Source: Flaviramulus sp. (GTDB lineage Bacteria; Bacteroidota; Bacteroidia; Flavobacteriales; Flavobacteriaceae). Taken from it: 10,510 nt of DNA. Numbering within the stretch: position 1 is the first letter of the stretch; each line of letters opens with the position of its first letter. The notes beneath the pieces were generated by a model. The model did not search any database and had not been told where the DNA came from. It worked only from the letters and a program-made list of their open reading frames with translations. The DNA is taken from the NCBI GenBank assembly GCA_023255235.1, contig JALRJA010000142.1, positions 1 through 10,510 of the forward strand, given 5' to 3'. The position numbers and the translations under genes are program-made. Shown here piece after piece: positions 982-6,029 of the stretch.

Positions 982-1129
982 GTTAGCGTACATCAACTTT
1001 AGCTATGCCTATACTAAAAACGCCTCTAATAAATAGCTAAATGCAATTTGGTAAAATTGTTCTTGTATTGTATTCGTTTTTTTAATAAATTCACTAAATA
1101 AAATCTAGAAAGTAACTGCTTAACTGAAA

Positions 1130-1141
1130 CGTTAGCTACAA
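1130..1141 (+). repeat. CGTTAGCTACAA box, copy 1
   Basis: The 12-base box CGTTAGCTACAA is identical to 1798-1809. Each copy lies 24-29 bases ahead of the start codon of one of the two accessory genes. A shorter inverted form, GTAGCTAAC, lies at 2284-2292. Position and pairing suggest a cassette boundary or recombination site; the sequence alone does not prove it. Confidence 0.5.
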
Positions 1142-1165
1142 GTTCTACACAACGCCACCAAATCA

Positions 1166-1714
1166 ATGACTATAGAGAAATTATTAACCGAATTTTATAA
1201 AGAAAATAAACTTCCTGAAAACGGTGGAATTGACAAAGACACGTTTGAGATGAAAGTTCTCGGAATAAACCTAAAACTTCCGAACCCTAAATTTAGAAAA
1301 GATGTAATACACATTCACGACATTCAGCATATATTGAATACATGTGATACTTCTTGGAAAGGAGAAGGATATATTGCGGGATGGGAAATTTCAACTGGAT
1401 TTTGGAAATATTTTCCAATTGCTATTTTCAGTTTTTGGGCAATGGGATATAGCTTATGGCTTCACCCAAAAGCAGTTTATCAAGGTTTTAAAAAAGGGCT
1501 GAATAATATTGGAATTATTAATCTGAAAATTAGTAAATCGGACTTTCTAAAAATGGAATTTGACAAGCTTGTTGAAATCACCAGAAAAGAAAAAACAACC
1601 GAAATGGGGATTTTACAATGGACTGAATTTCTTTTTTGGATTTTGATTAGCCAAATTGTTTTTCTTTTTCCTTTTTTAATTACCATAATTGGAATAATAT
1701 GGATTTTAAAATAA
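1166..1714 (+). CDS. COQ4-like membrane protein of unknown function
   Basis: The product has 182 residues. Residues 51-67 contain HDIQH followed by eleven residues and Glu (H51, D52, H55, E67). This is exactly the HDxxH-x11-E metal-ligand motif of the COQ4 family, with a conserved-looking GEGYIAGWE stretch after it. In eukaryotes COQ4 acts in coenzyme Q synthesis. Bacteroidota normally use menaquinone, so a ubiquinone role should not be assumed; bacterial COQ4-like proteins with membrane segments are of uncertain function. Two hydrophobic segments are visible, a weaker one near 82-100 and a strong C-terminal one near 155-181. The N-terminal 50 residues look soluble. The start at 1166 is the first ATG downstream of the CGTTAGCTACAA box. 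The gene sits in accessory DNA between trmD and rplS, with no clear promoter of its own. Motif assignment is good; function is unknown. Confidence 0.75.
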   Translation: MTIEKLLTEFYKENKLPENGGIDKDTFEMKVLGINLKLPNPKFRKDVIHIHDIQHILNTCDTSWKGEGYIAGWEISTGFWKYFPIAIFSFWAMGYSLWLHPKAVYQGFKKGLNNIGIINLKISKSDFLKMEFDKLVEITRKEKTTEMGILQWTEFLFWILISQIVFLFPFLITIIGIIWILK

Positions 1715-1749
1715 AGCACCGTGTACAGCTCATTGCTTCAAAATTTCTT

Positions 1750-1766
1750 TGCGGAAATTCCCCGCA
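1750..1766. repeat. short G+C-rich hairpin after the COQ4-like gene
   Basis: TGCGG (1750-1754) pairs perfectly with CCGCA (1762-1766) around a 7-base loop. It stands out in AT-rich surroundings and lies between the stop of the COQ4-like gene and the direct repeat at 1773. No T-run follows, so it is not a typical intrinsic terminator. It may be the central stem of a cassette-end structure. Confidence 0.35.
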
Positions 1767-1772
1767 GATTTT

Positions 1773-1802
1773 CACGCAACAAAACCATACACAAAACCGT
1801 TA
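1773..1802 (+). repeat. 30-base direct repeat, left copy
   Basis: This stretch matches 2416-2445 at 29 of 30 bases; the only difference is C at 1780 against A at 2423. The shared core ends ACCATACACAAAACCGTTA. Similarity stops on both sides: this copy continues GCTACAA, the right copy TTTGTGT. The pair brackets the secreted-protein gene and defines a unit of 643 bases. Confidence 0.85.
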
Positions 1803-1809
1803 GCTACAA
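1798..1809 (+). repeat. CGTTAGCTACAA box, copy 2
   Basis: Identical to 1130-1141. It overlaps the last five bases of the left direct repeat and precedes the secreted-protein ATG by 29 bases. GTTAGCTAC (1799-1807) is the exact reverse complement of GTAGCTAAC at the gene's stop codon (2284-2292). Confidence 0.55.
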
Positions 1810-1838
1810 TTTTCCAAGACGCTTAGAAAACTGAATAA

Positions 1839-2291
1839 ATGAAATTTTTCGTTATAATAGTATCATTTTTTTTCTGTCTAAATATAAATGGACAAAATAT
1901 TGAGGGAAAATATTGTTGGTCATTTAAAAACAAATTTATGGGTCGAATTTCTCGATGTCTTGAGTTCGATGGGAATGGAAGGTTTGAATCTGAACTTATA
2001 ACTGACATAGGAATTATTGAAAAAGGCGATTATGAAATTATAGACAATAAATTAATTCTGACATATGATTTAGTAGACGAAACTGAATTTGTGAAAGAAG
2101 ACTACGAAATGTTCGAAATTAAAAAAAATGAAGGCTTGAGTTTTGAGGAATATTATGAGGTTTCTACAGGCGTAAAAATTGGAGAAAGACTAAAGAGGGA
2201 ATTTATAATACTAAAGCATAAAAATATGAAACTGAAATTGAAAAATCTTAAAACAAAAAAGAGAATTATGCTTAAAAAAAACTGTAGCTAA
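1839..2291 (+). CDS. small secreted protein of unknown function
   Basis: The product has 150 residues and starts with a signal peptide (MKFFVIIVSFFFCLNING, probable cleavage before Q19). Cys13 is inside the hydrophobic core and has no lipobox, so a lipoprotein is unlikely. The mature part has a repeated pattern of short beta strands: GKYCWSF, CLEFDGNGRFE, KGDYEIIDNKLILTYD. This recalls small lipocalin-like or beta-sandwich proteins that Bacteroidota export; I do not recognise a named family. The last 25 residues are very rich in lysine, and the final C-S-stop codons are made by the GTAGCTAAC box at 2284-2292. The gene is bracketed by 30-base direct repeats in the trmD-rplS interval, which points to horizontal acquisition. 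No promoter matching the Bacteroidota consensus is evident. Coding status is likely, function unknown. Confidence 0.7.
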   Translation: MKFFVIIVSFFFCLNINGQNIEGKYCWSFKNKFMGRISRCLEFDGNGRFESELITDIGIIEKGDYEIIDNKLILTYDLVDETEFVKEDYEMFEIKKNEGLSFEEYYEVSTGVKIGERLKREFIILKHKNMKLKLKNLKTKKRIMLKKNCS

Positions 2292-2292
2292 C
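2284..2292 (-). repeat. inverted GTTAGCTAC box overlapping a stop codon
   Basis: On the plus strand this reads GTAGCTAAC, the exact reverse complement of the boxes at 1131-1139 and 1799-1807. It supplies the TAA stop (2289-2291) of the secreted-protein gene. Placement of an outer arm on the stop codon is typical of integron-like cassettes. Confidence 0.5.
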
Positions 2293-2415
2293 AAAGAACT
2301 GAGGCAATAAACAAGTAATTTTTTAATTATTTATGGCTAATATACTTCTGTATTCATTATTGTAAGGCACACCGTTTTTAACAATAGAAAAGGCTTGTTT
2401 TAATAGTTTATTAAC

Positions 2416-2445
2416 CACGCAAAAAAACCATACACAAAACCGTTA
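2416..2445 (+). repeat. 30-base direct repeat, right copy
   Basis: Matches 1773-1802 with one mismatch. It ends in CCGTTA, after which the sequence diverges (TTTGTGT instead of GCTACAA). It lies about 125 bases after the secreted-protein stop and just before the hairpin-rich element at 2456. Confidence 0.85.
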
Positions 2446-2455
2446 TTTGTGTTAA

Positions 2456-2656: not shown

Positions 2657-3007
2657 ATGGAATCTTTAGTAAAGTATATACAAGACGAATTTGTAACCAA
2701 AAAAGAGTTTCCTGAGTTTAGTGCCGGGGATACCATTACCGTTTATTATGAAATTAGAGAAGGCGATAAAGTGCGTACTCAGTTTTTTAGAGGTGTTGTA
2801 ATTCAGCGAAAAGGAACGGGAACTTCTGAAACCTTTACCATTAGAAAAATGTCTGGCACTATTGGTGTTGAGCGTATTTTTCCGGTTAATTTACCAGCTT
2901 TGCAGAAAATTGAAATTAATAAGCGTGGTAAAGTGCGTAGAGCAAGAATTTACTACTTTAGAGGTCTTACTGGTAAAAAAGCAAGAATTAAAGAAAGAAG
3001 AAATTAA
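2657..3007 (+). CDS. rplS: 50S ribosomal protein L19
   Basis: L19 lies at the 30S-50S interface of the large subunit. The 116-residue product matches the usual 115-120. Typical features are FSAGDTITVYYEIREGDKVR (21-40), RTQFFRGVVIQRKG (40-53), FTIRKMSGTIGVERIFPVNLP (60-80) and the basic tail KVRRARIYYFRGLTGKKARIKERR (92-115). ATG 2657 follows an A-rich leader (TTTAAAGAT) without a clear Shine-Dalgarno, as is usual in Bacteroidota. The gene has its own promoter and a strong terminator, so it is a single-gene transcription unit here and is cut off from trmD by the accessory block. Confidence 0.98.
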   Translation: MESLVKYIQDEFVTKKEFPEFSAGDTITVYYEIREGDKVRTQFFRGVVIQRKGTGTSETFTIRKMSGTIGVERIFPVNLPALQKIEINKRGKVRRARIYYFRGLTGKKARIKERRN

Positions 3008-3064: not shown

Positions 3065-3121
3065 ATTAACTTTTGTTAATAACTATGGTTTATAAATAGT
3101 TGATATCTAATTGCTTAAAAA

Positions 3122-3153
3122 TTTGGTTTTTTTAAATTGTGGTTATAATTTAG
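3122..3153 (+). promoter_or_regulatory. promoter-like site with no assigned gene
   Basis: TTTG (3122-3125) and TAATTTAG (3146-3153) are 20 bases apart; the second differs from TAnnTTTG at one base. It points rightward into 3160-3735, where I find no convincing protein. It could drive an untranslated RNA or a long leader, or be a chance match in AT-rich DNA. Confidence 0.25.
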
Positions 3154-3219
3154 CAACAGAATGTAATAACAGCTTTATAAGTTGGTTTCGTTTTAAAAAT
3201 GAATTTGTGTTATTTTCTA

Positions 3220-3238
3220 ATAAAGAAACGTTCTTTAT
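3220..3238. repeat. perfect 8-bp inverted repeat
   Basis: ATAAAGAA (3220-3227) and TTCTTTAT (3231-3238) flank ACG. There is no T-run beyond the stem, so a terminator is not indicated; an operator or RNA stem is possible. Confidence 0.4.
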
Positions 3239-3253
3239 ATAATTGTTTTTTGA

Positions 3254-3294
3254 GGTTTTGTTGATGTGCGTGTAGGCGTGATAAACAACAAACC
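3254..3294. repeat. long-looped inverted repeat
   Basis: GGTTTTGTTG (3254-3263) pairs with CAACAAACC (3286-3294), nine pairs with one bulged T, around a 22-base G-rich loop. It may be part of an untranslated RNA in this gene-free stretch. Confidence 0.35.
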
Positions 3295-3735
3295 ATGATA
3301 CTATAACAAGTAGTGCATGTGCAAGCAGGCAAAAAACTGGTGTGGTAGAAAGCTTTGAAAAGCAACAGGAGCGAAAGTAAATGTTGTAATAGAAGCAATG
3401 CTATAAACGAAATGGACGTGCAAACGAAAAGGCAGTTAATAGCATCAAGGAAAACAATTAACAGAAACATGATACAGTAAGTCAATACATTTTGAAAATT
3501 GTAACCATGTTTCGTTGAAATAACAGCACTTAGCTGAAAGGTTTAGATGAAAATTGTAAATCGTTTTGGTTTAGTTACTAAATAAGCTCAAGTTATGTTA
3601 TTTCAAGAAAGCCATGTCAGTAGTAGATTTAGTTCTGCAATGATATGGCTTTTGTTTTTAGAAATAATTCTATCATTAAGACTTTTTGCTGGCATTTTCT
3701 TGTGTTTTATCATCTTTTTTAAAAGTCATTTTTTG

Positions 3736-3743
3736 TATATTCG
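3736..3743 (+). promoter_or_regulatory. candidate -7 element for the icd operon
   Basis: TATATTCG matches TAnnTTTG at all but one base and lies 72 bases before the isocitrate dehydrogenase ATG. Only a T-run, not a clean TTG, is found at the -33 distance. Confidence 0.4.
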
Positions 3744-3803
3744 CAACGCCAAAAAACAAGCTTGTTTAAACAGCTGTTTTAATAGTTAAAATAAACCCAG
3801 TAA

Positions 3804-6029
<2,226 letters not shown>

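Follow-up and report, generated by a model that had tools for sequence, protein, structure and literature searches.

The two small genes lying between trmD and rplS in the stretch of DNA analysed here (10,510 nucleotides, called the window below; contig C258 of a genome that is 77% complete) are very probably gene cassettes of an integron-like recombination system of the Flavobacteriaceae and other Bacteroidota. Both have the appearance of worn representatives of a large mobile-cassette family, and the platform behind this family is best read as integron-like, combining folded sites of variable core with an integrase devoid of the I2 insertion. In the window, trmD (304-981) and rplS (2657-3007) were both identified by Pfam, with the two accessory ORFs in between. 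An origin in Flavobacteriaceae is indicated by the L19-Flavobacteria leader, by those homologues that carry an organism name and by the named genomes with such sites. The interval 1132-2442 can be interpreted as an insertion of two cassettes in tandem, with trmD on one side and a Flavo-1 RNA on the other; this RNA begins four bases beyond the right edge of the insertion (G2442|T2443). The following features were defined:

1124-1131, forward strand: left target flank CTGAAACG, with the putative crossover G1131|T1132 (G|TT boundary deduced from repeated cassettes in relatives)
1131-1139, forward strand: core GTTAGCTAC, start of cassette 1
1132-1799, forward strand: cassette 1 (TT...G), gene and recognisable site, pairing R'' lost
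1166-1714, forward strand: ORF of cassette 1, 182 amino acids, no Pfam match at E <= 0.1
1709-1799, forward strand: attC-like site of cassette 1, covered by the R1 match at 1709-1807 (57.4 bits, E 2e-10)
Parts of the cassette 1 site: R'' position 1709-1717 (degenerate), L'' GTGTA 1721-1725, inner TTGC 1733-1736/GCAA 1776-1779
Parts of the same site, 3' side: L' TACAC 1788-1792, spacer AAAACC, terminal G1799
1799-1807, forward strand: core GTTAGCTAC, start of cassette 2, putative crossover G1799|T1800
1800-2442, forward strand: cassette 2 (TT...G), whose core 1799-1807 pairs exactly with 2284-2292; repeated 3' arm at 2416-2442
1839-2291, forward strand: ORF of cassette 2, 150 amino acids, no Pfam match at E <= 0.1
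2284-2292, forward strand: R'' GTAGCTAAC, complementary to the core of cassette 2 at every position and spanning the stop codon
2362-2442, forward strand: what is left of the decayed site of cassette 2, its 3' arm at 2416-2442 still well preserved, with the 30-nt repeat
2443-2450, forward strand: right target flank TTATTTGT, overlapping the start of the Flavo-1 RNA
2447-2514: Flavo-1 RNA, directly right of the insertion
2601-2628: L19-Flavobacteria leader, right of the Flavo-1 RNA

The preliminary description of this DNA had pointed to a box, CGTTAGCTACAA, in front of both accessory genes, and it was indeed found at 1130-1141 and 1798-1809, while the inverted box at 2284-2292 spans the TAA stop codon of the second gene (2289-2291). 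When the 1800-2442 unit is closed on itself, both boxes form the outer stem of a fold, as had been proposed. The boxes are also more frequent than composition predicts: exact GTTAGCTAC occurs three times in the window, against a mean of 0.06 and a maximum of 1 in 200 dinucleotide shuffles. Tolerating one mismatch leaves a weak excess (4 against 1.8, and 22 of the 200 shuffles reach 4). An exact GTTNNNNNN located at most 80 nt before an ORF, together with its complement at the stop, was observed for one of the eight ORFs examined in the window; random trials gave it 10 times in 20,000. The missing box at the stop of the first gene had been correctly noted, the R'' position reading AAATAAAGC. 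Inner arms, described earlier as not evident, are present at the end of that gene in the form of the GTGTA/TACAC and TTGC/GCAA pairs listed above. The name 'COQ4-like' given to the first gene was not confirmed by any Pfam family at E <= 0.1.

R1, a covariance model of the site, aligns in full length with the end of cassette 1, where the terminal part of the site is nearly deleted. The same model gave 15.1 bits (E 0.17) for the end of cassette 2 (2362-2450) and 17.3 bits (E 0.058) for the stretch preceding cassette 1 (1013-1139), both of which are decayed sites at best. Cassette 1 has no pairing R''; cassette 2 keeps its R'' but shows no recognisable inner stem. Both window cassettes are thus partly decayed. 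The protein of cassette 1 has 356 homologues at E <= 1e-3, and the few among the best 120 of these that name an organism belong to Bacteroidota. For cassette 2, 15 proteins were obtained at E <= 1e-3, one of which is that of the window itself. A search of 296 genomes of the order gave four homologues of the first gene; inspected by eye over 250 nt upstream and 400 nt downstream, they displayed no cassette boxes. For the second gene, the homologues from 397 family genomes (five with a match, the window's own included) were discarded for comparison as too distant, the best reaching 42% over half of the length.

The target region was compared across 30 trmD-rplS loci, the window's own included. 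The gap was readable in 17 of them, nine came in the other orientation, and in four trmD was out of reach; this comparison did not establish an empty site. Several relatives (loci L006, L009, L012, L014 and L024) contain about 480-1200 nt of extra sequence in the trmD-rplS gap, which in some of them adjoins a Flavo-1-like stretch. The gap may be an insertion hot spot. On the other side of rplS, about 700 nt of the window (3100-3815) hold no convincing gene before a 737-aa ORF.

A search for genomic copies of the box, as suggested in the preliminary description, delivered two copies of CGTTAGCTAC in the genome, both in the window. Such a single-box search yields almost nothing because the box GTTAGCTAC is not conserved: GTT is kept and the next six bases vary with each cassette. 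The conserved part of the site is the 3' arm, not the core. Relatives were reached owing to a second repeat of 30 bases common to the sites at the second and third junctions, CACGCAA(C/A)AAAACCATACACAAAACCGTTA, located at 1773-1802 and 2416-2445. Its 13-base part ACACAAAACCGTT was found in 132 of 299 family genomes. Single matches are little informative, since a control pattern read backward also occurs (at most three per genome). In some genomes, however, the pattern is clustered on one strand, as in G529 with 14 forward and no reverse matches. Clustered sites continue with GTT and six variable bases, for which an exact 9-base complement was present at most 6 kb downstream in 32 of 39 (our own count). 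In these relatives the cassette starts at G|TTNNNNNN, and the 9-nt complement lies just past the gene, inside a foldable site of about 127 nt.

The pairing between both ends of a cassette was assessed in several ways. An initial test (13 exact pairs out of 37) was blurred because sites with other 3' arms escaped it. With a looser motif comprising the site start alone, the exact complement was found upstream in 157 of 222 cases, against 38 of 2193 for scrambled cores. In a blind test, sites were defined only by the conserved stretch after R'' and by the conserved 3' arm, in a searched site length of 105-140, and R'' was then compared with the core of the nearest preceding site. Exact complementarity was obtained for 86 of 154 sites, whereas 1000 shuffles of the cores gave a mean of 3.4 and a maximum of 11; for gaps below 1.5 kb, the count was 80 of 105. 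The core following the site matched in 10 of the 154. Each cassette therefore tends to carry both halves of its own closed site. The pairing rule is thereby apparent at the level of sequence.

The role of GTT was further addressed without any motif in 31 array loci, which are not a random sample since they had been picked by the 13-base pattern or by integrase matches. There, GTT leads the 64 start trinucleotides in linked inverted 9-mers with a count of 436, followed by TTG with 112 and then 24 (each pair counted on both strands). At 80 named integrase loci GTT was not leading (76 links, GCG 130), and rplS loci gave no links. An earlier version of this test was swamped by A/T-rich words and masked stretches and was repeated without them. 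Cassette boundaries could be read from repeated cassettes: in 90 pairs (four of the 93 found being between genomes), agreement between copies is 96-100% over the 20 positions at either end of the cassette and is lost beyond the shared CG|TT, falling to 44% at the third base past the end.

Site anatomy is regular in length and variable in core. The distance from R'' to G is 123-131 nt in 153 of the 154 blind-test sites; a few longer ones of 188-194 nt (three near 190) occur in the exact-pair set. Among 82 sites, 52 distinct cores were counted, with A or G at position 4 in 81. GTTRRRY, the classical integron core consensus, fits four of the 82 sites and four of the 52 distinct cores. In a 48-row alignment, the inner stems GTGTA/TACAC and TTGC/GCAA have 99.5% of cells paired (93.4% in shuffles), and 30 cells changed on both sides (GC to AU, UA to GC or AU) against 9.5 in shuffles. 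Sliding the partners by 1-3 columns left at most 60% paired. Covariation is carried by only two of nine pairs varying on both sides, and two of the five inner-stem measures were no higher than in shuffles, namely both-side-changed pairs (342 of 500) and further pair types (406 of 500). Folded in silico as closed sites, 77 of 79 were more stable as bottom strand and none as top strand; pairing is given by construction in this set and in the 82-site core set because the sites were chosen for exact pairing. The longest ORF runs in the cassette direction in 161 of 173 distinct cassettes and starts at a median distance of 31 nt from the core; for 133 of these 161, its stop lies at most 30 nt from R''.

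On other contigs of the window's own genome, R1 detected sites at 66, 62 and 35.5 bits in addition to weaker ones. Four sites were examined for a core/R'' pair, which was exact on C20 and C34 and absent on C18 and C230. The C20 pair is GTTATGTGC (site of 66 bits), the C34 pair GTTAGGCAA (weak R1 match, 25.8 bits, E 0.054), and in both the left flank is not a cassette end. The genome therefore appears to contain single insertions that are dispersed and partly worn. The preliminary description had proposed to look for a tyrosine recombinase in the same genome: an integrase of the array group was not found in this 77% complete genome, which gave three weak matches to the integron-integrase model. 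Such an enzyme may be encoded in the missing quarter, may have been lost or may act from elsewhere.

In relatives, the candidate recombinase is adjacent to the arrays. A search of 12 genomes with TIGR02249 gave no protein over the cut-off, and weak matches were obtained in every genome as well as in all 14 controls. In G530, G337, G520, G539 and G014, a top match lies at most 2.2 kb from a ACACAAAACCGTT-type site on the same strand. The order in G530, on one strand, is leuD, leuB (named by reading the sequence), integrase and cassettes. The next-ranked integrase matches after the genomes examined earlier were then taken, one per genome (a second match in G560 was skipped), giving 40 loci; the profile behind this ranking had been built from integrases mostly found beside arrays. 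At these loci, 45 cassettes were located downstream on the same strand (at 19 loci), three upstream and four on the opposite strand. Contig ends occur within 1 kb of the integrase downstream at 11 of these loci and upstream at none. Where at least 3 kb were available downstream, 14 of 24 loci have a cassette, and the other ten have none by the motif used. The first core lies 36-131 nt past the end of the integrase match in 11 of the 40 loci, preceded by a left flank unlike cassette ends, and some of these 11 loci show an inverted repeat; an attI site would be expected in this interval. Array order and integrase neighbourhood are directly visible in these loci.

Twelve integrases were aligned. 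Residues R232, K257, H321, R324, H347 and Y356, which we take to be the catalytic ones, are invariant in all 12. The I2 region has 18 residues compared to about 61 in IntI4 (2a3v), and the absence of I2 is plain from the distance between conserved motifs, 58-59 residues in 12 of 12. This distance was measured in 71 of the 80 named loci: seven have 99-101 residues (IntI-type) and 64 have 50-69. Four array-type proteins scored 191-219 bits with TIGR02249 (cut-off 265), against 488 and 480 for the two of seven IntI-type proteins tested. The integrase profile of IntegronFinder reportedly depends on the I2 region. The NCBI XerA-type model NF040815, whose title includes 'integron integrase', was passed by two of the four array-type proteins (221 and 236; cut-off 220). 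In a tree of 87 rows, a branch with support 99 separates the seven IntI-type rows from all others, and a group of 43 rows (support 94) unites the 12 aligned and 11 named array-bearing ones and holds neither IntI nor Xer rows; the tree is a quick one with SH-aLRT only, and 33 of its 84 inner branches are under 80. The group also includes 20 integrases with no array shown. The predicted structure of the integrase (pLDDT 82, pTM 0.52) has XerA 5hxy as best Foldseek match, with IntI4 2a3v close behind. An N-terminal extension of about 95 residues (alignment columns 1-95), predicted as alpha/beta, is present in 10 of the 12. Two identical 305-aa integrases without this extension, each with cassettes downstream, were seen in G337 (L083, L129).

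The distribution of the system was estimated across the phylum. R1 matched at E <= 1e-4 in 61 of 296 genomes, and in 17 of 30 among the genomes listed for the window's family, where all 13 without a match carry the genus code g61 (four other g61 genomes match); the numbers of sites per genome are floors because at most 11 candidates were scored in each. At E <= 0.01, matches were obtained in 10 of the best 25 of the 80 named loci and in one of ten rplS loci among those listed. At least two paired sites of the flavobacterial motif near such an integrase were found in four of the 80 named loci: Algibacter onchidii, Winogradskyella ursingii, Seonamhaeicola aphaedonensis and Flavobacteriaceae bacterium S0862. 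Inspection by eye also revealed linked GTT pairs, of differing site sequence, next to the integrases from Bacteroidetes GWF2_41_31 (five cassettes), Flavobacterium aciduliphilum, Aquiflexum and MAG39, and a weaker pair in Algoriphagus. Other I2-less Bacteroidota integrases have neighbouring cassettes at L170 (11044-15802), L145 (11130-18150) and L152 (11226-12510), where site sequences differ strongly from the flavobacterial ones and the 9-nt pairing is kept. Identical HigB/HigA-type toxin-antitoxin pairs (assigned by Pfam on one copy) occupy the two ends of the cassette stretch of G530 (L068, 1253-1850 and 13817-14414, minus strand), which also contains repeated identical 198-aa ORFs and a SMI1/KNR4-like gene.

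According to the mechanism proposed here, a cassette is a unit able to form a circle, starting with TT and six variable bases and ending with a site of about 127 nt, the first nine bases of which (R'') are complementary to the cassette's own start. Closure would generate one hairpin with an outer 9-bp R''/R' stem beginning with GTT, an unpaired spacer, the conserved inner stem made of GTGTA/TACAC followed by TTGC/GCAA, and a terminal part that varies. The tyrosine recombinase encoded just upstream of the array on the same strand would cleave the folded strand, in all likelihood the bottom one, at G|TT and insert cassettes beside its own gene or at stray chromosomal GTT sites; the pair in the window would represent a degenerate two-cassette insertion at such a stray site. 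We infer catalysis, a single-stranded substrate and recombination by the system. Cutting of the folded strand at G|TT by the adjacent recombinase, as well as the choice of strand, is suggested by the likeness to attC. No recombination product or circle was observed.

Ordinary integron cassettes, i.e. a CALIN of ordinary attC sites placed by ordinary IntI, with the flavobacterial sites as a mere sequence variant, would have the same geometry, folded junction and G|TT boundary, and a Vibrio array (L196) included in the same scan displays the same 9-bp pairing. This explanation is nevertheless unlikely, considering the poor fit of the cores to GTTRRRY, the 58-59 residues of array-type integrases where seven IntI-type ones have 99-101, the TIGR02249 cut-off passed in none of 12 genomes and the position of array integrases outside the IntI clade. 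The preliminary description had suspected cassette geometry with an attC-like junction in a non-classical system, which the relatives and the R1 match support. The units might instead be moved by the host XerC/XerD, as with dif-type modules, the nearby integrase being incidental. The three weak model matches in the window's genome and the resemblance of array integrases to archaeal XerA as much as to IntI speak for it. It is still very unlikely, since the core is variable beyond GTT, unlike the dif site, and the arrays are one-sided, following the integrase gene.

Finally, the window boxes could be due to chance or to a local duplication in two copies, unrelated to the family, and each cassette does retain only part of the expected features. 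With site 1 matching R1 at E 2e-10 and three boxes where 0.06 are expected, this appears extremely improbable. The preferred reading, an integron-like cassette system, is presented as a variant of the integron rather than as a member because an I2-bearing IntI and a GTTRRRY core were both looked for and do not characterise it. We give about even chances to a broader proposal, in which a second kind of integron would exist across Bacteroidota, with nearly free cores, folded single strands and a recombinase lineage that never had I2, being either a pre-I2 survivor or an independent invention; I2 would then be dispensable.

PMC9668308 takes the IntI-specific additional domain (I2/patch III) as the criterion of an integron integrase. 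A 2020 eLife study on integrase evolution (PMC7790495) attributes single-strand recombination to the acquisition of the I2 helix and counts missing intermediates among the obstacles to reconstructing this step. An I2-less, non-IntI lineage sitting on arrays with attC-like folded sites would make the I2 question directly testable. For Bacteroidetes, IntegronFinder 2.0 (PMC9024848) reports a single complete integron, that of Salinibacter ruber, and for its earlier study only In0 elements. At least three of the papers PMC9024848, PMC8618304, PMC9668308, PMC8352920, PMC3478194, PMC7790495 and PMC11023631 touch on integrons of Bacteroidetes or Bacteroidota. No description of the system was encountered in the open literature (titles and abstract starts, among the matches listed), most subscription papers and preprints lying outside this search. 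Should the present interpretation be true, gene exchange in Bacteroidota would include a route that has largely escaped attention.

As in integrons, e.g. the Vibrio superintegron, the integrase adjoins an array of co-directional small genes, and the cassette closes to a hairpin site whose outer arms begin with GTT and end with AAC, with a G|TT boundary. The unpaired spacer, the inner arms, the variable terminal part and the bottom strand being more stable in silico are shared as well. Unlike in integrons, the array integrase lacks the I2 insertion of IntI and mostly bears the N-terminal extension, the core is not GTTRRRY, and the cassettes come after the integrase gene and share its orientation, the first core lying soon after it in 11 of the 40 loci. 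The fold and the catalytic residues of array integrases are those of Xer recombinases (XerA, XerC/D, XerH), from which they differ by separating from the Xer rows in the tree and by sitting at cassette arrays. Integron cassettes are also taken up at secondary GTT sites named attG, and the isolated off-array cassettes in the window and on C20 and C34 resemble this type of insertion.
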